Origin: Puniceicoccaceae bacterium K14
Lineage (GTDB): Bacteria > Verrucomicrobiota > Verrucomicrobiia > Opitutales > Opitutaceae
Length of the DNA: 58,074 nt
Direction: 5' to 3'
Assembly: GCA_022538095.1 (NCBI GenBank)
Contig: JAKYXN010000037.1
Span: forward strand, 1 to 58,074
In this document: positions 43,219 through 52,864 of the stretch, one piece after another
How positions within the stretch are numbered: the stretch's first letter is position 1
Layout: every line of letters begins with the position of its first letter
Notes under the pieces: generated by a model
What the model saw: only the letters and a program-made list of their open reading frames with translations
Told to the model about the DNA's origin: nothing
Database searches by the model: none
Program-made: the position numbers and the translations under genes

Positions 43219-43877
43219 ATGAATTACAAACTGACTATTTTCGATTTCGACGGAACTCTTGCCAATTCCTTCCCCTCGTTTTGCAAATATCTCAACGAAG
43301 CGGCAGACATATTTGGATTTGATCGAGTGGATGAAACCAAACTCGAACAAATCCGAAAACTCTCAACTCGCAACGTTATGCGATCTCTTCAGGTGCCTCT
43401 TTGGAAAGCACCTCAGATCTCTCGCTTCTTACGCTTGCGCATGAATGAAGATGTATCGACTATCTCACTCTTCGAAGGTATTCAGACCTACTTAAAAGCA
43501 TACACAACACAGGTGTTAAGATCGCAATTGTCAGCTCAAATTCATACGAGAACATCGCTGCGATACTCGAAGAGGAAAATGCGGATCTCGTGGATTCCTA
43601 CCAATGCGGTGTGTCTCTCTTTGACAAACCGAAAAGGTTAAAAAAAATGATGCAGAAAATGGCAGTAGAACCTCACGAAACACTTTATATTGGTGACGAA
43701 GTCAGAGATATTGAGGCCGCTAAAAGTGCTGGAATAGCCCAGGGTGCCGTTTCCTGGGGCTATAATTCTCCATCGATTTTGAAAACCCAGCAGCCAACGC
43801 ATTTTTTCCAAACTGTTGAGGAAATGACCGAAATTATTCGTTCCTACCCCACCCCTAATGAACTCAATACGAACTAA
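43219..43877 (+). pseudogene. HAD-family phosphatase interrupted by a -1 frameshift
   Basis: The N-terminal frame (43219-43641) starts with HAD motif I 'IFDFDGTLANSFP'. Near 43500 the protein-like reading moves into the -1 frame, which carries motif II 'IAIVSSNSYENI', motif III Lys ('LFDKPKRLKKM') and motif IV 'YIGDEVRDIEAAKSAGIAQG'. Joining at TAC-TTA-AAA gives '..GIQTYLKSIHNTGVKIAIV', a normal HAD sequence, so the shift falls on the AAAA run at 43494-43497. The composite is 219 residues, similar to phosphoglycolate phosphatase-type enzymes. All motifs are intact otherwise. It may be a sequencing error, a recent mutation or a frameshift site. Confidence 0.8.
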
Positions 43878-44152: not shown

Positions 44153-44698
44153 TTACTTACTCCAAGGTGGAGCCACTCCAATCGAACGAGCATAGGCGAT
44201 TAATTGACCCAAGTGTTCGTTCGCATGAGCGCCTATTATGAGAACTGCTCTTAACTTAGGAGACTCTTTGCCAAATAGCTTGATGGTCGTTTCTAGATCC
44301 TCTTCACTCACGCCTTCGATCGCTTCGCGAGCGAATATGATAGACGCTTTTAGAGTTGCCAGAATCTCATCTTTCTCGACGACAGTTTTTTCAAAAGCGC
44401 GAGGGTTTATTCCCTCAGGCACTTCCTTCCCCAGCATACTGCCCAAAAAGTAATTGGCGGCTGCCACGTGGGTCATCGATTCACCGACCGAACGAATGCC
44501 CTCAGCCGGACGCCAAGCATACTGCTCGTCACTAAATTCATCAGCTAACTGAATGATCTTATCATTCGCTGCTTTCAGGTTTCCTAAAAAGGTTTCGTGA
44601 AAGAGGCTGCTCTTCGCATTGTCTTCTTGCTCAGCGGAATGCGCGAGTGATGTAAGCAAAAGGGAAACAAGCCCCATTATTGTCATTAAATTTTTCAT
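44153..44698 (-). CDS. Exported DinB-like four-helix protein
   Basis: 181 residues with signal peptide 'LMTIMGLVSLLLTSLAHSA'. The mature part 'LGNLKAANDKIIQLADEFSDEQYAWRPAEGIRSVGESMTHVAAANY' and 'LIIGAHANEHLGQLIAYARS' matches the DinB/YfiT-like metal-binding four-helix bundle (three conserved His, one in each motif). Members are usually cytoplasmic thiol transferases or unknown; here it is exported. It may be a thiol-linked enzyme, which is interesting beside a bacillithiol operon, but this is inference. Confidence 0.78.
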   Translation of the reverse strand: MKNLMTIMGLVSLLLTSLAHSAEQEDNAKSSLFHETFLGNLKAANDKIIQLADEFSDEQYAWRPAEGIRSVGESMTHVAAANYFLGSMLGKEVPEGINPRAFEKTVVEKDEILATLKASIIFAREAIEGVSEEDLETTIKLFGKESPKLRAVLIIGAHANEHLGQLIAYARSIGVAPPWSK

Positions 44699-45279: not shown

Positions 45280-45822
45280 TTACTCGGAAGAAACAGTAAT
45301 TGGAACTGCCACAGAAAGATTTCCCCAAGAGAGAACTAAGTCAGCTTTATCAGCGGAAAGTGTATCGAAGCCAATGGTAAAAGACTCTACTGAATTACCT
45401 TCAGACACATCACCGGTAGCTCGAACAACATCCATCGCTTCGTCGTAGCGCGTCCCCCAGGACAAGGTTGAATTGAGAATGAACGTCCAATGCGTATCAC
45501 TTGGAATAGTATAAAGTGAATACGTTCCTACCTCGACATGTTGGCCACCGAACTCTACACCACTTGAAAAAGTTATAGCCGCAGACTCATTCGCCCCCGT
45601 TCTCCATACTTTGTCAGCAGGTGCCAGCGCGCTCATTGAACGCCCCTTCAAACTTGGACGCCCGTAAGTGACCGACACGATAGTCGTACCGATCGTTTGG
45701 CTAACGCTAGCATTGGGGCTCAATCGAACTTTGTCTGCTCCTCGCTCTTGGGCGTTGACGAGAACATGTCCAAGACAAAAGGCAAAGAATGAGAAGATCC
45801 ATATTTTCGCTCGTGATTTCAT
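45280..45822 (-). CDS. Exported DUF2911 protein
   Basis: 180 residues with signal peptide 'WIFSFFAFCLGHVLVNA'. The body carries DUF2911 motifs: 'VSVTYGRPSLKGRSMSAL', 'VWRTGANESAAITFS', 'VEVGTYSLYTIPSDTHWTFILN' and 'FTIGFDTLSADKADLVLSWG'. Family members are common exported proteins in Bacteroidota and Verrucomicrobiota with unknown function. It is 78 bases before the Dabb-domain gene on the same strand. Confidence 0.88.
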   Translation of the reverse strand: MKSRAKIWIFSFFAFCLGHVLVNAQERGADKVRLSPNASVSQTIGTTIVSVTYGRPSLKGRSMSALAPADKVWRTGANESAAITFSSGVEFGGQHVEVGTYSLYTIPSDTHWTFILNSTLSWGTRYDEAMDVVRATGDVSEGNSVESFTIGFDTLSADKADLVLSWGNLSVAVPITVSSE

Positions 45823-45873: not shown

Positions 45874-47016
45874 TTAACAGCCGACAATTGGGCTCAAAAT
45901 CTCCTCATAAACGTTCAAATAACTATTAACAATTGTTTGGGCTGAAAACTGTGTCATCGCTCTCTGCCGAGCTGATGCCCCCATATTTCCTCTGAGTGTA
46001 GGATTATTGGCTAAACAAAGAATCGCTGAACTCATTTCGTCGACCGATCCGAAAGGTACTAAAAAGCCGGTTTCCCCATCGAGCACAACTTCCGGAATAC
46101 CGCCAACAGCGAAGGACACGCTAGGCAAACCATGTCGCATCCCTTCGAGGATACCTAAACAAAAGCTCTCGTACTCGGAGGAATACAGAGTAAAATCAGC
46201 CGCAGCAAAGTAGTTGTCTACGTCATACACGTTTTCTAGTATAATGACGCTTCCCTCCAAGTTCCACTTCGCGACATCGCCCTCAATACGAGAGGAATCA
46301 GAACCAGCCAAGATAAGTAATTTAGCGCCCGTTTTCGCCGCTGCCTGGAAGGATTCCAACATCAAATCGATTCGCTTGATACTTCTCAAATTCGACGCGT
46401 GGATGGCGAGCGCTTCATCACCGACACCAAGCTCTGATCGAATATTCGATCGGGTGGCAGTAATTTGCTTGGGCTCATAAAAATTGGGAACGACTTTAAT
46501 CGGGTTTTCGAGATCAAATAAAGAGAGTGCTCTCTCCTTCAAATTCCGTGAAACACAGGTAACTCGATCAGAAGCCTCAAGAACATGTTGAAGCAAGGGA
46601 CGATATTCAGGCATTTCGCCCAGGTAGACGATATCAGTCCCATGCAAAGTAGTAACAATCGGTGGGCCTCCTGGACCAATCAATTCCTTAGCGATCCAAG
46701 CAGCCGCAGTGTGCGGAATCGCGTAATGGGCATGGATAATATCAATATCGTTTTCAGAGCATACCTCAGCAATTTTTGTGGCCATCGGCAAGGTGTGGTC
46801 TGGGCTACTAAAAAGAGGAAACTCCACTGGCTTCGATTCACAAAAACATACATTAGGGTGGCTTTCATTCAGACGAAACGGAGCCCGTTCGGAAATCACG
46901 AAAACTTCGTGCCCTAGATTCGCCATTCGGTGACCGAGCTCTGTAGCCAATATTCCACTGCCTCCGACACTCGGATGACAAAGCAATGCAATTTTTAACG
47001 GTTTTCCCATTACCAA
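45874..47016 (-). CDS. bshA: N-acetyl-alpha-D-glucosaminyl L-malate synthase
   Basis: 378-380 residues (ATG 47016 or 47010). GT4 glycosyltransferase with the BshA-specific N-terminus 'IALLCHPSVGGSGILATELG', 'ISERAPFRLNE' and 'IIHAHYAIPHTAAAWIAKEL', and the C-terminal donor-binding 'EYESFCLGILEGMRHGLPSV'. It joins UDP-GlcNAc to L-malate, the first step of bacillithiol synthesis. Last gene of the operon; the gap to bshB1 is 5-11 bases. Confidence 0.93.
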   Translation of the reverse strand: MVMGKPLKIALLCHPSVGGSGILATELGHRMANLGHEVFVISERAPFRLNESHPNVCFCESKPVEFPLFSSPDHTLPMATKIAEVCSENDIDIIHAHYAIPHTAAAWIAKELIGPGGPPIVTTLHGTDIVYLGEMPEYRPLLQHVLEASDRVTCVSRNLKERALSLFDLENPIKVVPNFYEPKQITATRSNIRSELGVGDEALAIHASNLRSIKRIDLMLESFQAAAKTGAKLLILAGSDSSRIEGDVAKWNLEGSVIILENVYDVDNYFAAADFTLYSSEYESFCLGILEGMRHGLPSVSFAVGGIPEVVLDGETGFLVPFGSVDEMSSAILCLANNPTLRGNMGASARQRAMTQFSAQTIVNSYLNVYEEILSPIVGC

Positions 47017-47021
47017 TAAAA

Positions 47022-47735
47022 TTAAAATCGTTGCCCGCGCAATCCACTTAGAGCGTTAACCGAACTCAGCAACAAGGGCCCTTCCGAGTAAAGCCGAAGC
47101 GCTGCTCCAACACCCGCCTGAATCCCCAACGCCCGAGCCTTAGCCAACTGAAGTTCTACATAATCCATGTTTGCCACTTGGCTGGCATGACAATTCATCA
47201 GTGTCGTCCATTTGTCTATATGGCCAGACACATCCAACAAAAACGGTGTCAGTCCACTATCCTCAGTCGCTCCACTGGTGATCTCGTAGAATAATATCAA
47301 TTGAGAGCTATGCGGCTCAAAATCTTCTAAGCCCGGTGTCTTTCCATATCGAGCCAAACGAAAGGCATCCCTCACAAGAAGACTCGTTTCGCGATGATCC
47401 GGATGCTGGTTCAAGTGCCCAGTCGGAGCCAAAACATAGTGAGGCTTAAAACGTCGAATCGCAGACGCTGCCAAAAGCACCATTTCTCGATCCGCTCGTA
47501 TTTGAGTATCCCCCTTCGTTTCAGGGAAACGAATATCGGCATTGGCCAATGCGGCCGCCGCCCTCGCTTCAGCCTCGCGGGTCTTAGCATCGCCTTGAGT
47601 CCCAGCCTCGCCCCTAGACAACACGTTCCACTCCAGATGAGCTCCCTGTTCAGCGGCATCGATTAAGAATGGGCCACACCCGAATTCGATATCATCTGGG
47701 TGGGCGCCAAAAACTAGGATTCGCTTACCATTCAT
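47022..47735 (-). CDS. bshB1: GlcNAc-malate deacetylase of bacillithiol synthesis
   Basis: 237 residues from ATG 47735 ('MNGKRILVFGAHPDDIEFGC'); the open frame extends to 47780, but that part overlaps the upstream gene. Zinc motif AHPDD is followed by 'PTGHLNQHPDHRETSLLV', the second metal/His motif of PIG-L-fold deacetylases. The spacing and 'GTQGDAKTREAEARAAA' are as in BshB1. It removes acetate from GlcNAc-malate to give GlcN-malate. It overlaps the upstream BshC-like gene by 11 bases. Confidence 0.92.
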   Translation of the reverse strand: MNGKRILVFGAHPDDIEFGCGPFLIDAAEQGAHLEWNVLSRGEAGTQGDAKTREAEARAAAALANADIRFPETKGDTQIRADREMVLLAASAIRRFKPHYVLAPTGHLNQHPDHRETSLLVRDAFRLARYGKTPGLEDFEPHSSQLILFYEITSGATEDSGLTPFLLDVSGHIDKWTTLMNCHASQVANMDYVELQLAKARALGIQAGVGAALRLYSEGPLLLSSVNALSGLRGQRF

Positions 47736-48504
47736 GTTTGCACTCAACATACGCTTCACCAGATCGTTCGATTTCATCACGTTTCACAAATTCAATTTCG
47801 GGAGCTTCATCGGTGTTTAGGTACTGAATTTCGCCTGCTCCAGCTATGTAATGAGTACAGTGCAAAATCGACTGCATCCAGCGGAGACGTGTATCTCGTG
47901 TCGGACTGATTTGACTCTTCTTCACCTCGTCTACCGGAACCTCAATATAGCGATTTCCTCCTTTATACAGATAGTATCCTCCCTCTCGAAAACGAGCTCT
48001 TACAATTTCGCCTTCATAGGGCGTATCTAAAAAATAATCATCTACATCAATCGCGTTTTCACGGATTTTGGCATCGCTAGACCTGACAATCTCAATCCCT
48101 TCCAATAACCCCATCCCTTCGTACATTCTAAGACAGAAGTCGACTACGTCATAAGAATCGATCGACGAAAATAATTCTACCCACTGAGGCTCTACCAAAT
48201 TAGGCAATTGTCTCCGAGCCTTAGCCTGCCAATCAGGCTTAATCGTCTTACAATAGAGTGGTGAATACAATTTCTGGATCTTATTGGAAAATTCAAAGTT
48301 GATTCGCTCTACCTTTTTCGAATGGCGGTTTGTCAAAATCGCATTCGTTTCGCGATGATCGTGGTCACTGTCGTGAAGAAAAAATACAATACGCCCTCCT
48401 ATCTCCGACTGCAATCTCCGAGCAGTCTTGATTTTAGAAAAGACAAATCGATTTGGGAAAATTCCACAAGGCTGTTGGCCAAAGCAGATAATCGGCTCCG
48501 TCAT
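47725..48504 (-). CDS. Minimal BshC-like protein (putative bacillithiol cysteine ligase)
   Basis: 259 residues from ATG 48504, which overlaps the symporter stop as ATGA. Three blocks resemble BshC in order: 'IICFGQQPCGIFPNRFVF' (BshC 'GQQ.GL.TGPLYT'), 'VFFLHDSDHDHRETN' (BshC 'FW.A.EDHD.DEIN', residues 44-52 here) and 'THYIAGAGEIQYLN' (BshC 'FIAGPGEINYW', residues 220-229). 'FREGGYYLYKGGNRYIEV' also resembles a BshC segment. BshC is normally about 540 residues with a C-terminal coiled-coil dimerisation domain; here the chain ends 30 residues after the third block and has no N-terminal extension. Placement next to bshB1 and bshA supports the role. The similarity is from recollection of BshC sequences and is not a database result. 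Confidence 0.7.
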   Translation of the reverse strand: MTEPIICFGQQPCGIFPNRFVFSKIKTARRLQSEIGGRIVFFLHDSDHDHRETNAILTNRHSKKVERINFEFSNKIQKLYSPLYCKTIKPDWQAKARRQLPNLVEPQWVELFSSIDSYDVVDFCLRMYEGMGLLEGIEIVRSSDAKIRENAIDVDDYFLDTPYEGEIVRARFREGGYYLYKGGNRYIEVPVDEVKKSQISPTRDTRLRWMQSILHCTHYIAGAGEIQYLNTDEAPEIEFVKRDEIERSGEAYVECKHEW

Positions 48505-50198
48505 GAATTCAACCGCCTTCCTATCATTGGCTGTAAGGCCAAGCTCAACACGATCACAAGGAAACAAGCGATCATGTTGTACCACAAGTAACCAATTTCA
48601 ATGATATGAGAAAAATAAAGGAAGAGGACGGTTAGCTGTGCAATCAATGCGGACAGGAACGCAGCATTCGCCTTGATGCGTTTTATAAAAAACGCAGCTA
48701 AGAACAAACCAAGGACAGTCCCGTAAAAAAGGGAGCCGACTATATTCACGGCCTCTATCAAACTCTCAACCATACTAGCGAAAAGCGCGAACACGATGGC
48801 TATGCCGCCCCAGATTCCAGTAAAAACTCGAGAAGCCTTTACATAGTGCTCCTCGCTTTTCTCCTTCACAAAATGGCTTTGATAAAAATCAACAGTAGAG
48901 ATCGTCGCCAAGGCACTCAATTCCGAAGCAGTCGACGACATCGCCGCGCTTAAAATCACCGCAACCAACAGGCCGATCAAACCAATTGGTAGCTCATTGA
49001 GTATAAAATGTATAAATACAAAATCGGAGTCTTTCATGCCCTGCTCGCCTGCTCCACTCGCGATATATTCGCGTACCGCCGAACGGGACTCTCGAACTAC
49101 CTGTCCCACTTCCTTTAGGGCTTCCTTCGCCGCTTCCTCGGCCAGAACATCACCAGACCTCATCGCAGCGACATAGTCTTCTAAAATTACTTTCTGATTT
49201 TCAAAATCGGCCTCAAATCGATCCTCAACCCCCTGGTAGGCACTAGGATCGCCTTCAATGCTTTGTTCAATAATCGAAGTCGGCAAAAAAGTAGCGGGTG
49301 GTTTCTCCCATTGATAGAAGACAAAAACCAACACTCCTAGAAGCAGAATCATAAACTGCATCGGAACTTTCAAAAGTGCATTGAACATTAAGCCAAGACG
49401 ACTCTCGCGCACTGAGTTACCCGACATGTAGCGTTGTGCTTGAGATTGGTCCGTCCCGAAGTAAGATAGCGATAGAAAAAAACCGCCCAACAAGCCAGAC
49501 CAGAGCGTATAGCGTTTATCCAAGTCAAAGGAAAGGTCCACAACATTCAGACGCCCAAGAGCGCCAGCAATACTCAGATTTTCTCCAAACCCTGCGTATC
49601 CTGATATTTTATACACGACAATTCCAAAGGCAATCGCCATTCCACTCAAAATAACCGTCATCTGGTATTTATGAGTCAAACTCACCGCATGGGATCCGCC
49701 AGTCACCGTATAAAGAATAACAGCAACACCTACACCAATCACGGTTGTGTTCATATCCCAACCAAGCACACTCGTTAAAATAATCGACGGCGCGTAGATT
49801 GTAATACCAGCCGAAAACCCACGCTGTATTAAGAAAATAACACTACCCAAAGTACGGGTTTTGGAATCAAAACGGTGTTCGAGAAACTCGTAGACTGAAC
49901 ATAAGTCCAGTTTGTAATACATCGGTACAAAAACGATCGATATCAAAATCAAGGCTAGCGGCATGCCAAAGTAATTTTGCACGAAAGCCATACCACTATC
50001 GAAGGCTAAGCCAGGAGTGGAAAGAAAGGTAATCGCACTGGCTTGCGTCGCCATGACCGACAAACCAATCGTACCCCAACCGTTTGAATGTCCCTTTAGA
50101 AAATCATCCAAGTTGTGATCATTGCGCGTTTTCCATATCCCGAAAAAAACGATGGAAAGCAACGTTGCGCTTAAAACGACAATATCCAACCCACTCAT
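48501..50198 (-). CDS. Sodium:solute symporter (SSS family)
   Basis: 565 residues with about 13 membrane helices, of SSF/SGLT type: 'IGLSVMATQASAITFLSTPGLAF' and 'YFGTDQSQAQRYMSG' are recognisable. A soluble insertion of about 95 residues ('DRFEADFENQKVILEDYVAA' and beyond), predicted helical, sits between two late helices. The solute is unknown. Genes of this kind are found beside bshC and PIG-L genes in Bacteroidota as well. It is coupled to the BshC-like gene by ATGA, so import may be linked to bacillithiol metabolism. Confidence 0.88.
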   Translation of the reverse strand: MSGLDIVVLSATLLSIVFFGIWKTRNDHNLDDFLKGHSNGWGTIGLSVMATQASAITFLSTPGLAFDSGMAFVQNYFGMPLALILISIVFVPMYYKLDLCSVYEFLEHRFDSKTRTLGSVIFLIQRGFSAGITIYAPSIILTSVLGWDMNTTVIGVGVAVILYTVTGGSHAVSLTHKYQMTVILSGMAIAFGIVVYKISGYAGFGENLSIAGALGRLNVVDLSFDLDKRYTLWSGLLGGFFLSLSYFGTDQSQAQRYMSGNSVRESRLGLMFNALLKVPMQFMILLLGVLVFVFYQWEKPPATFLPTSIIEQSIEGDPSAYQGVEDRFEADFENQKVILEDYVAAMRSGDVLAEEAAKEALKEVGQVVRESRSAVREYIASGAGEQGMKDSDFVFIHFILNELPIGLIGLLVAVILSAAMSSTASELSALATISTVDFYQSHFVKEKSEEHYVKASRVFTGIWGGIAIVFALFASMVESLIEAVNIVGSLFYGTVLGLFLAAFFIKRIKANAAFLSALIAQLTVLFLYFSHIIEIGYLWYNMIACFLVIVLSLALQPMIGRRLNS

Positions 50199-50214: not shown

Positions 50215-50358
50215 CTAGCTAAAATGCCTCGTCATCCAGACGAAGAAAACAATCTGCGCGGCTAATGCAGCCATCACAAATACGTATAGAGTGTTCCACC
50301 TCTGGACTTCCTCTTTTTCGGACCCCGCGTCAGCGTTATCGATCAAATCAGTTTTCAT
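50215..50358 (-). CDS. 47-residue single-pass membrane protein
   Basis: A small gene with ATG 50358, overlapping the end of the PIG-L gene by 11 bases, and stop at 50215, 16 bases before the symporter start. The product has an acidic N-terminus ('MKTDLIDNADAGSEKEEVQR') and one membrane helix at about residues 24-42 ('YVFVMAALAAQIVFFVW'). It is probably a small accessory subunit of the symporter; small partners are known for some SSS transporters (such as YhdT-PanF). The overlap with its neighbours argues that it is a real gene. Confidence 0.65.
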   Translation of the reverse strand: MKTDLIDNADAGSEKEEVQRWNTLYVFVMAALAAQIVFFVWMTRHFS

Positions 50359-52864
50359 GGCCGAGAGATATTAAATTCACAAATAATCGAATTGCTCCGG
50401 AATTGCCTTCCGGAAGTTGTCTAAAAAAGGAAAGCCCGGTATAGGCATACCACCCTTTCCCATACTGAGCGACGAGTAGACCACCATCCTTAGGCGACTC
50501 TCCCCTATCGTTCGCGGAAACTAATGCATCATACTTGTCATCCCAGCTTGAGGCATAGTACAAACCGCGCTCTTGTATCCAATCGTCGAAATCGCTTTTC
50601 GTTATCTTATTGGGAGTGTTAAACACAGGATGCTCTGCCTTCAAAATTCGCATTTCCACCTTTTCCTCAGAAACCCTGTCGCGAGACAACTGAATGGGAT
50701 ATGGCGATGAGAATTTCGATTTCGATCGGAAACTGGTTGTGTTGAATTGAGAGATCAATGTCCCACCATTCTTCACATAAGCAGTTAGAAATTCGAATGC
50801 TCGGTCTAAGCCAACATGTGCATCAAATGCTCGAGGACCCAAAATAACTGTGTCGTATTTCTGTAAATCAGTCGTAGTGATATTGGGTATTTCAATACGA
50901 TCAACGTCGTAGCCAATTCGCTCCAAGGTATCAGGAACCGTATCGCCTACACCTTCGATACAAGCTATTTTGTTCCCTGCTCGGGCAAGGTCGAGACGAA
51001 CCAGTTTCGTTTTCGCCTGGCTCAATATCGCATGCCGACCAATGTGTTCATACTCAATATTCTTCGAATCCAAATCAAACCGCTTTCCACTATCTGACAA
51101 CACGCTAAAAGTCACATTCGCTTCAGACGCTCCCGCTGGAGGCGTTACCTTTACGGTAACGACTTGGCTCGTTTCCTTCTGAGGTATCGATACAGCTGCA
51201 TTCTCAATATCAACAACCCAATCCTTCGAAACCTCCATCTGCAAAGTTCCATTGAAATCATCCACATTACTCGTAAGCGTAAGGTCAATCTCCTTAGGAG
51301 TACCGTCTTGAAAAACCAAGACAGAAGCATCTGCGTGCAAAACAAATTCTGGCCGAATAGACACTGGAAAATGAACTTCACCCTTAACAGGGTCACTGAC
51401 TACTTGAATAGCCGGAGTCCTCAATTCGATCAATTGTCCTTCAATCTCGATTTCTGACACAACTTCGATTGCAGTAGGGATATCATGTAATTCCAACAAC
51501 CTGTCATTATCAAAGTAGTACAATCCAGAACTAGGCTCCTTTTCGAGCCAATAAGGCTGTGTCAAAGCCACGTTCTCAGACAACTTCAATTGAAGTGCAA
51601 CGTTTTCAGAAACATCCGAACGCAAGGTCTCATTCATGCCATCGACTCCCGCGAGTTCAGTTAACTCCGGCCAAGCGCCACTATCAAATAATCTTGCCTG
51701 AACACTCCGAACAATCGCTCTAATTGGGGACCGATTGTTTAATTCAACTTGTAAATCAGACTTCTGTCCCGGGGTTAAGTAGGCAGTCGAAGATCGAGCT
51801 TCAATATGAAGCCCCATCGCAGCAGCGATAATTTCGTGCAGATTTTTTCGCTTCGCTTCAGTTTCACGACTCAATGGCAATTTTTGAAAAATCGGATCCA
51901 GCTTAAGCAAGTCCGGCACACTCTTCCACGGAGCAGAGTGATCGAACTGTTCAATCACCTTGGACAACAATAAATCGATTTCGCCGCCTTCAGCATAGCG
52001 AGCCCAAGTGGTATCAACCCCACTCAAAAAGTCGCCATCCCCCGCATCGCCATCCAAAAGAACGAGACGTTCTAATTGCCCGCCACGCCGGCCTGCTCGG
52101 CCAAAGCCTTGGCTTTTATGCATACTACGACTTTGCGCAGAAATCTCTGTGTACGACGTTCCTAAATACGGGTTATAACGTCCGATTTCAAGCTCGATAA
52201 TTTCACGTTCTTCTTCGTCAAGCCCAACGGAACTACGTCCATAGCCATTCCAGTAAATACGCTTCGCCTGATGCGTCCCAAGTTGTTCAAGTTGTTCAGG
52301 AAAAGCGTTCGGGTCCGCAGCCAAATTAAACGCTTTAAGCGCCAATTGAGCGGAAACCGTATGGTGTCCATGAGTTCGTCGTCCCAAATCAGGGTCGAAA
52401 CGAGTGATAATCACGTCAGGCTTATAACTCCGTACCGCATAGACCACATCGCCAAGGACCTCGTCTTCTTGCCAATTTTCCAAGGTATCCTCAGGGTTCT
52501 TAGAATATCCAAAGTCTCGAGCTCGAGTAAAAAGCTGCTTGGCTCCGTCTATCTGACGCGCTTGCAATAATTCGTTTGTTCGGATTAGTCCGAGCCCTTC
52601 TTTAAGCTCCGGTCCGATCAGGTTTTGTCCACCACCTCCACGGGTCAGCGACAAATAAGCAGTATCCAGTTTTTCATTCTGAGAGAGATAAGTTAACAAC
52701 GCAGTATTTTCATCATCTGGATGAGCGGCTACAAACAGCACAGAGCCCACCGTATTTAGCTTTTCTAACTCGAGAAGCAGTTCCGAAGATGTAAGAGATT
52801 GGCTACTACCCATACTCGTTAAAAAAATGCCGCTAAAAAATAGGAGAATTCGAACAGGGTTCAT
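50348..52864 (-). CDS. Large exported PIG-L (LmbE-like) hydrolase
   Basis: 838 residues with signal peptide 'ILLFFSGIFLTSMGSSQ'. The N-terminal 250 residues are a PIG-L/GlcNAc deacetylase domain: 'VLFVAAHPDDENTALLTYLS', 'SLTRGGGGQNLIGPEL', 'VIITRFDPDLGRRTHGHHT' (second zinc motif). The central part resembles NEW3-like beta domains, and the C-terminal ~200 residues resemble a Rossmann/GATase-like region ('YDTVILGPRAFDAHVGL'). It is exported, so it acts on extracellular or periplasmic amide-linked sugars. It is the first gene of the bacillithiol operon. It may release amino sugars or act as an amidase on thiol-sugar conjugates. Confidence 0.85.
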   Translation of the reverse strand: MNPVRILLFFSGIFLTSMGSSQSLTSSELLLELEKLNTVGSVLFVAAHPDDENTALLTYLSQNEKLDTAYLSLTRGGGGQNLIGPELKEGLGLIRTNELLQARQIDGAKQLFTRARDFGYSKNPEDTLENWQEDEVLGDVVYAVRSYKPDVIITRFDPDLGRRTHGHHTVSAQLALKAFNLAADPNAFPEQLEQLGTHQAKRIYWNGYGRSSVGLDEEEREIIELEIGRYNPYLGTSYTEISAQSRSMHKSQGFGRAGRRGGQLERLVLLDGDAGDGDFLSGVDTTWARYAEGGEIDLLLSKVIEQFDHSAPWKSVPDLLKLDPIFQKLPLSRETEAKRKNLHEIIAAAMGLHIEARSSTAYLTPGQKSDLQVELNNRSPIRAIVRSVQARLFDSGAWPELTELAGVDGMNETLRSDVSENVALQLKLSENVALTQPYWLEKEPSSGLYYFDNDRLLELHDIPTAIEVVSEIEIEGQLIELRTPAIQVVSDPVKGEVHFPVSIRPEFVLHADASVLVFQDGTPKEIDLTLTSNVDDFNGTLQMEVSKDWVVDIENAAVSIPQKETSQVVTVKVTPPAGASEANVTFSVLSDSGKRFDLDSKNIEYEHIGRHAILSQAKTKLVRLDLARAGNKIACIEGVGDTVPDTLERIGYDVDRIEIPNITTTDLQKYDTVILGPRAFDAHVGLDRAFEFLTAYVKNGGTLISQFNTTSFRSKSKFSSPYPIQLSRDRVSEEKVEMRILKAEHPVFNTPNKITKSDFDDWIQERGLYYASSWDDKYDALVSANDRGESPKDGGLLVAQYGKGWYAYTGLSFFRQLPEGNSGAIRLFVNLISLGHEN

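Follow-up and report, generated by a model that had tools for sequence, protein, structure and literature searches.

A half-size, coil-less relative of BshC in the bshA operons of Verrucomicrobiota, accompanied by a sodium symporter

The window analyzed here, a stretch of 58,074 nucleotides, comes from the genome of Puniceicoccaceae bacterium K14, an assembly of 5.72 Mb in 358 contigs that is 97% complete. Its minus strand carries a gene for a 259-aa half-size BshC protein, hereafter mini-BshC (47725..48504), which was assigned from its open reading frame, sub-threshold Pfam and NCBIfam matches, an AlphaFold model and a fold match to 4wbd. The start codon is the ATG at 48504, where the minus strand reads gaattcATGAcgg, and it overlaps the TGA of the preceding gene, which encodes a 565-aa sodium:solute symporter of the SSF family (48501..50198, minus strand; PF00474, 2.2e-39). 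On the other side, also on the minus strand, are a bshB1-like gene for GlcNAc-malate deacetylase (47022..47735), whose best model is TIGR04001 with 113.1 bits (below the cut-off of 182.5), and bshA, encoding GlcNAc-malate synthase (45874..47016; TIGR03999, 361.6 bits, over the cut-off of 273.7). For bshB1, the ATG at 47735, which gives an 11-nt overlap with mini-BshC, is a likelier start than the GTG at 47780 taken in the list of open reading frames. Thus the shared ATGA and the position of the gene in the bsh operon, between the symporter and the bshB1-like and bshA genes, are both as given in the preliminary description. Upstream of the symporter lies a gene for a large PIG-L protein of 838 aa (50348..52864, minus strand; PF02585, 5.3e-16) with an AHPDDE motif and an N-terminus that looks signal-like by eye, and the 3' neighbour of bshA encodes a DUF2911 protein (45280..45822, minus strand; PF11138, 2.7e-43). 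Promoter-like and terminator-like sites showed no clear excess over shuffled sequence.

Two further features are located near these genes. A HAD-type phosphatase, recognized by eye at 43219-43877 (plus strand), is apparently split over the overlapping frames 43219-43641 and 43590-43877, by a frameshift that is either genuine or introduced by the assembly. A protein of the DinB_2 family (2e-15) with a signal-like N-terminus is encoded near the bsh operon at 44153-44698 (minus strand), and it had no match at E<=1e-8 in the best 80 of the 311 genomic stretches found to encode mini-BshC. DinB is, we presume, a member of the S-transferase-like superfamily. Bacillithiol transferases are reported to belong to that superfamily (PMC5815605).

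The similarity of mini-BshC to BshC is above chance, although it falls below the curated cut-offs. The BshC Rossmann-like domain PF10079 matches residues 21-85 (E 7.7e-5, 22.7 bits, gathering cut-off 27), and the BshC equivalog TIGR03998 of NCBIfam matches with E 2.3e-4 and 20.2 bits against a cut-off of 265.8. Since these cut-offs are missed, automatic annotation probably leaves the protein as hypothetical. Such an oversight had been foreseen in the preliminary description, and it is borne out by a set of 25 members, only two of which match PF10079 at E<=1 and only two TIGR03998 at E<=0.01. Comparison with six full-length BshC sequences by hhalign gave a probability of 18% for 25 members and 25% for 104 members (P 7.6e-4; 0.4% for a symporter decoy), and the alignment of the 104 members is collinear over 237 columns, with mini-BshC positions 1-250 facing BshC positions of about 83-392. 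A sequence search of the PDB with the mini-BshC profile returned no BshC chain (best E 0.23, unrelated), so that the link between the two proteins rests on fold, Pfam similarity and genomic context. No match to PHROGs was obtained at E<=0.1.

The structural comparison with BshC that the preliminary description had proposed supports the same relationship. The AlphaFold model of mini-BshC (25 rows) has a mean pLDDT of 94.3 and a pTM of 0.90. In a Foldseek search of the PDB its only match at E<=1e-3 was 4wbd, the citrate- and ADP-containing structure of B. subtilis BshC (E of 1.8e-10 and probability of 1.00, with TM-scores of 0.63 by query length and 0.33 by target length), and the superposition fits loosely, with an rmsd of 5.8 over 308 columns and 16% identity. 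A tighter alignment of the model to 4wbd was obtained with VIA-align, covering 243 of the 259 residues with Z 19.8 and rmsd 2.8; the runner-up was the class I lysyl-tRNA synthetase 1irx (Z 14.7, rmsd 3.1, 212 residues), followed by further class I synthetases with Z of 8.7 or less (8.7 for a tyrosyl-tRNA synthetase). A control model of full-length BshC from three sequences reached a pLDDT of 38.9 and was left out of the comparison.

Mini-BshC thus corresponds to the Rossmann catalytic part of BshC, with the initial ~80 residues and the coiled coil left off. In the Pfam scan of two full-length BshC proteins, PF10079 is followed by the coiled coil PF24850. The two missing parts had been named in the preliminary description, and both are borne out: with the starts that we chose, 7-11 residues precede the GQQ block in all 25 carrier genomes of the family, and the window protein ends ~30 residues past the GxGE..Y motif with no PF24850 in its Pfam scan. 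A separate gene for the coiled coil was sought as well and rejected, as PF24850 was over its cut-off in none of the 57 genomes of our comparison set and had no match at E<=0.01 in the window genome. The one sub-threshold PF24850 match among the 57 belongs to a genome without mini-BshC (G048).

Within the 259 residues, the three sequence blocks of BshC noted earlier are present in their original order. The block GQQPCG...K (residues 9-24; 48433..48480, minus strand) is the counterpart of GQQAG...K104 in BshC, HDSDHDHRE (residues 44-52, the first seven forming the HDSDHDH cluster; 48349..48375, minus strand) is that of AxEDHDxxE, and RLRWMQ...GAGEIQY (residues 206-228, ending in IAGAGEIQY at 220-228; 47821..47889, minus strand) is that of RPxxQ...GPxExxY. 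We paired 13 residues of mini-BshC and BshC (the latter represented by six sequences with B. velezensis numbering) by eye within these blocks, in agreement with the 104-member alignment: G9/G89, Q10/Q90, Q11/Q91, K24/K104, D47/D133, H48/H134, D49/D135, E52/E138, R206/R334, Q211/Q338, G222/G350, E225/E353 and Y228/Y356. All 13 BshC positions are invariant in the six full-length sequences, and 12 of their counterparts are invariant in 100 of 100 distinct mini-BshC members, the remaining one, D49, being kept in 99 (Asn in L073). R242/R377 is a tentative fourteenth pair that is absent from the 104-member hhalign alignment.

Other conserved residues are particular to the half-size form. H44 and D45 are invariant in mini-BshC, whereas BshC has alanine (in all six sequences) and Gly/Ser/Thr at these positions. 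C124 and C216 are likewise invariant, in contrast to the six BshC proteins, which share no invariant Cys; H218, where BshC has alanine, is kept in 99 of the 100 members, and C13 is also near-invariant. A zinc site like that of MshC was considered in view of these invariant Cys and His residues and is not claimed: by DSSP order C216 and H218 precede a strand and H44 follows one, and a joint Cys/His site that includes H44 looks unlikely in the model. The exact strings HIGH and KMSKS are absent from the 259 residues.

The half-size protein is a conserved family and not a broken gene. Our comparison set of 57 genomes consists of the window genome and 56 relatives, and 37 of the 57 belong to the window's family. 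Mini-BshC was found in 25 of these 37 genomes, the 24 other members having 52-62% identity to that of the window, and in an additional genome (G052) a match of 37 residues lies at the end of a contig. The length is 255-267 aa in all 25 (with starts chosen by us), and 42 positions are invariant among the 100 distinct members. Comparison of the window gene with seven relatives gave pN of 0.125-0.189 and pS of 0.87-0.93, and the loci L034-L037 gave pN of 0.040 versus pS of 0.216; hence mini-BshC is under purifying selection. We therefore rejected a truncated pseudogene, since the gene is conserved in all 25 carrier genomes of the family and pN is far below pS.

To describe the family beyond these genomes, we used a pattern scan of a genome collection, in which 311 stretches encode mini-BshC and the best 80 were examined; the collection had yielded no match to a single-protein query, but did yield matches to an alignment-based one. 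The length is 249-282 aa in 79 of these best 80 loci, and the closest relative among them is an Opitutales MAG with 80% identity (L030). Cultured bacteria are among the carriers, for example Pelagicoccus mobilis KCTC 13126 (L078). Most of the 80 have Verrucomicrobiota titles (Opitutales/Opitutaceae, Chthoniobacterales/Spartobacteria, subdivision 3 or unspecified), five are titled Cyanobacteria or Melainabacteria (L063, L074, L094, L097, L105), and single loci are titled Gemmatimonadetes, Rokuibacteriota and Acidobacteria. In a tree built by a quick method, the five Cyanobacteria/Melainabacteria-titled rows branch close to the base of a 38-row clade whose other rows are mostly Verrucomicrobiota, and three changes are needed. 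All five loci have the order symporter - mini-BshC - BshB1 - BshA, which suggests that the genes were transferred between phyla. Such a transfer is likely, in either direction, with the reservation that MAG titles can be wrong. No mini-BshC was found in viral contigs or plasmids, nor any BshC relative in viral contigs.

Mini-BshC co-occurs with bshA and takes the place of full-length BshC. All 24 genomes of the 57 with bshA over the cut-off carry mini-BshC, 23 of them on the same contig and one (G001) on two, while in the 25th mini-BshC genome (G027) the 3.3-kb contig ends about 0.6 kb past the gene. Among 387 genomes sampled from the phylum, mini-BshC is present in 25 and bshA is over the cut-off in 28, namely these 25 and three with full-length BshC, so that no bshA genome has both forms or neither (hypergeometric 2e-36 for the co-occurrence with bshA, a value that ignores relatedness and is indicative only). 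The three genomes with full-length BshC over the cut-off belong to another family than the window's, and the fourth match of that search, below the cut-off, was the mini-BshC of G331. The operons read BshC-BshB1-BshA in all three, and mini-BshC fills the same slot.

The search for a second BshC that the preliminary description had proposed was negative, with no PF10079 match at E<=0.001 elsewhere in the window genome. At E<=0.01 there was none in the 57 genomes, a search that also misses the window gene and so would miss other half-size forms too. PF10079 was likewise absent at E<=0.01 from 15 of 15 genomes of named mini-BshC carriers, and at E<=0.001 from all of the 146 genomes that represent the phylum of one Cyanobacteria-titled carrier in our sample.

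The gene neighbourhood of mini-BshC is also conserved. Among the best 80 of the 311 loci, bshA follows mini-BshC on the same strand in 78 (in the remaining two the stretch ends 58 and 49 bases past mini-BshC), the symporter is upstream in 77, and a BshB1-like gene is present in 62. The three loci without the symporter are L040, L052 and L107, with about 0.6 kb, 6 kb and 2.5 kb of upstream sequence, respectively. In the 49 loci with 6 kb on both sides we find BshA in 49, the symporter in 48, the large PIG-L protein in 46 (upstream of the symporter), DUF2911 in 41 and BshB1 in 40. Unlike in the window, 35 of the 39 strong DUF2911 matches lie upstream of the module. The PIG-L protein keeps its AHPDDE motif in 62 of 65 relatives, is apparently exported, judging by its N-terminus, and showed no sequence match to a protein of solved structure at E<=0.01. 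Around each of the three full-length operons, 16 kb of sequence contained no match to the symporter, the PIG-L protein or DUF2911 at E<=1e-5.

Of the 78 bshA-linked loci, 16 lack a BshB1-like gene in the available stretch, with the symporter, mini-BshC and bshA all present (L041, L044, L046-L049, L056, L058, L071, L076, L079, L080, L090, L091, L093, L101). Nine of these are titled Chthoniobacterales or Spartobacteria and seven unspecified Verrucomicrobia, and their deacetylase may be encoded elsewhere or replaced.

At E<=1e-60 the symporter occurs once per genome in 26 of the 57 genomes, that is, in the 25 carriers of mini-BshC and in G052. In G017 the symporter and PIG-L genes lie together on a contig other than that of mini-BshC, and therefore the association of symporter and mini-BshC is not only a matter of linkage. 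The two genes overlap or are <=30 nt apart in 60 of 76 measured loci, with ATGA in 23. The nearest solved relatives of the symporter by sequence are the multivitamin transporter, the bacterial symporter 5nv9 and monocarboxylate transporter 1, which as a lead only points towards carboxylates.

We consider it very likely that mini-BshC, at about 255 aa and without the coil, adds cysteine to GlcN-malate and replaces full-length BshC in most bshA-bearing Verrucomicrobiota sampled, its activity and product being predicted from the observations above. Both the Rossmann catalytic domain, which is class I synthetase-like, and the GQQ, DHD..E and R...Q...GxxE..Y residues of BshC are kept. BshA and BshB1 would supply glucosamine-malate; mini-BshC, by analogy with BshC and MshC, would activate (adenylate) cysteine with ATP and join it to GlcN-malate, the product being bacillithiol or a closely similar thiol. 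A carboxylated substrate or precursor of the pathway would probably be supplied or retrieved by the dedicated sodium symporter. Several points weigh against this reading: the weak sequence similarity with every curated BshC cut-off missed, the lack of a BshC chain in the PDB sequence search, the loose Foldseek superposition, the changed H44-D45 positions, YpdA (bacillithiol disulfide reductase) over its cut-off in none of the 57 genomes, the 16 loci without a BshB1-like gene, and the fact that by 2015 BshC itself had no activity demonstrated in vitro (PMC4360819).

Other readings of the half-size protein were weighed against the same evidence. It could be a related amide ligase that couples GlcN-malate with a different amino acid, or with a modified cysteine, and yields a new bacillithiol-like compound. 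Such a change of substrate would fit the invariant H44 and D45, which are specific to the half-size form and directly follow strand 2, the invariant C124 and C216, the partner proteins not found near the three full-length operons, and the distribution of the bacillithiol disulfide reductase YpdA, which is over its cut-off in none of the 57 genomes. Only general relatives of YpdA were found (the best in the window genome has 144 bits versus a cut-off of 339.9), and this absence either counts against bacillithiol or means that another reductase serves. The remaining core residues that are invariant in BshC are nevertheless kept, and the BshC slot of the C-B-A operon is filled; we therefore regard an altered substrate as unlikely.

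It is more improbable still that mini-BshC is one part of a split enzyme, active only in a membrane complex, with the coil or the N-terminal region provided by another protein such as the cytosolic part of the symporter. The occurrence of both proteins in the same 26 genomes and the tight gene spacing agree with this, and symporter residues ~301-380, which are poorly conserved, could be a docking part. However, none of the 57 genomes has PF24850 over its cut-off or a PF10079 match at E<=0.01, the mini-BshC model is confident on its own, and the symporter gene is on another contig in G017 and does not adjoin mini-BshC in L052. Least credible of all, to the point of being nearly negligible, is a decayed or non-catalytic remnant of BshC. 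The half length and the sub-threshold scores could be taken in its favour, but the near-constant length and start in the 25 family genomes, the 42 invariant positions and the purifying selection stand against it, as does the lack of a PF10079 copy elsewhere to take over. The conservation of the family already contradicts a remnant.

With the cysteine ligase as the preferred reading, a wider role of the module can be imagined, namely an uptake-coupled thiol cycle in which the apparently exported PIG-L protein, as an amidase or deacetylase, would act beyond the cytoplasm to trim compounds or conjugates of the bacillithiol type, the symporter would reimport the glucosaminyl-malate part, and mini-BshC would recharge it with cysteine. 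We hold this cycle to be rather doubtful; a thiol salvage system composed of PIG-L protein, symporter and coil-less ligase would be new if true. The one-to-one co-occurrence with the symporter hints at a partner for transport in a bacillithiol pathway.

Beyond the preliminary description, the analysis shows that the protein forms an entire family accompanied by a dedicated symporter, and that full-length BshC occupies the same C-B-A slot in three other genomes of the phylum. As far as the consulted portion of a 2018 study goes, no low-molecular-weight thiol was documented or predicted for Verrucomicrobia, and its ortholog search required similar length (PMC6282198). A 2025 survey of 43 phyla demanded similar length and over 80% coverage, and Verrucomicrobia are not named in its main text, the part consulted (PMC12719100). 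Going by these parts of the two surveys, their demand for similar length excludes a half-size ligase and leaves a blind spot. In the literature searched, which included few subscription papers and no bioRxiv, we found no earlier report of a half-size BshC or of a link to a symporter. Many Verrucomicrobiota, and some MAGs titled Cyanobacteria or Melainabacteria, are predicted to make a bacillithiol-type thiol, and a group believed to be without such a thiol may well make bacillithiol or a close relative. Should mini-BshC prove active, catalysis would need neither the coiled coil nor the N-terminal region, and the protein would serve as a minimal enzyme and a test case for the mechanism of cysteine ligation by BshC.

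Among known systems, mini-BshC shares the class I synthetase-type Rossmann core with MshC, which catalyzes the analogous step in mycothiol synthesis, and with cysteinyl-tRNA synthetase. MshC holds cysteine via Zn2+ on C43, C231 and H256, according to the excerpt consulted (PMC9736012), and mini-BshC differs in that no set of this type was identified in it. The class I lysyl-tRNA synthetase 1irx is the second-best fold match to the model; unlike mini-BshC, it is a tRNA synthetase of 507 residues, of which residues 19-303 are aligned with 12% identity. For BshC itself, the sections consulted of a 2015 review describe the mechanism of cysteine ligation as unknown and the activity as never demonstrated in vitro, the coiled coil as required for dimerization, the ADP as occupying a second pocket that differs from the one in MshC, and the active sites as open to unknown partners (PMC4360819). 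Mini-BshC resembles B. subtilis BshC (4wbd; PF10079 and PF24850; TIGR03998) in its Rossmann catalytic fold with the GQQ, DHD..E and R...Q...GxxE..Y residues, and it resembles the BshC of the phylum's three full-length operons in sitting with bshB and bshA. In contrast to BshC proteins of 521-554 aa (six sequences), it has about 255 aa, lacks both the coiled coil and the ~80 residues at the N-terminus, carries H44-D45 in place of Ala-Gly/Ser/Thr, and is accompanied by a dedicated symporter.
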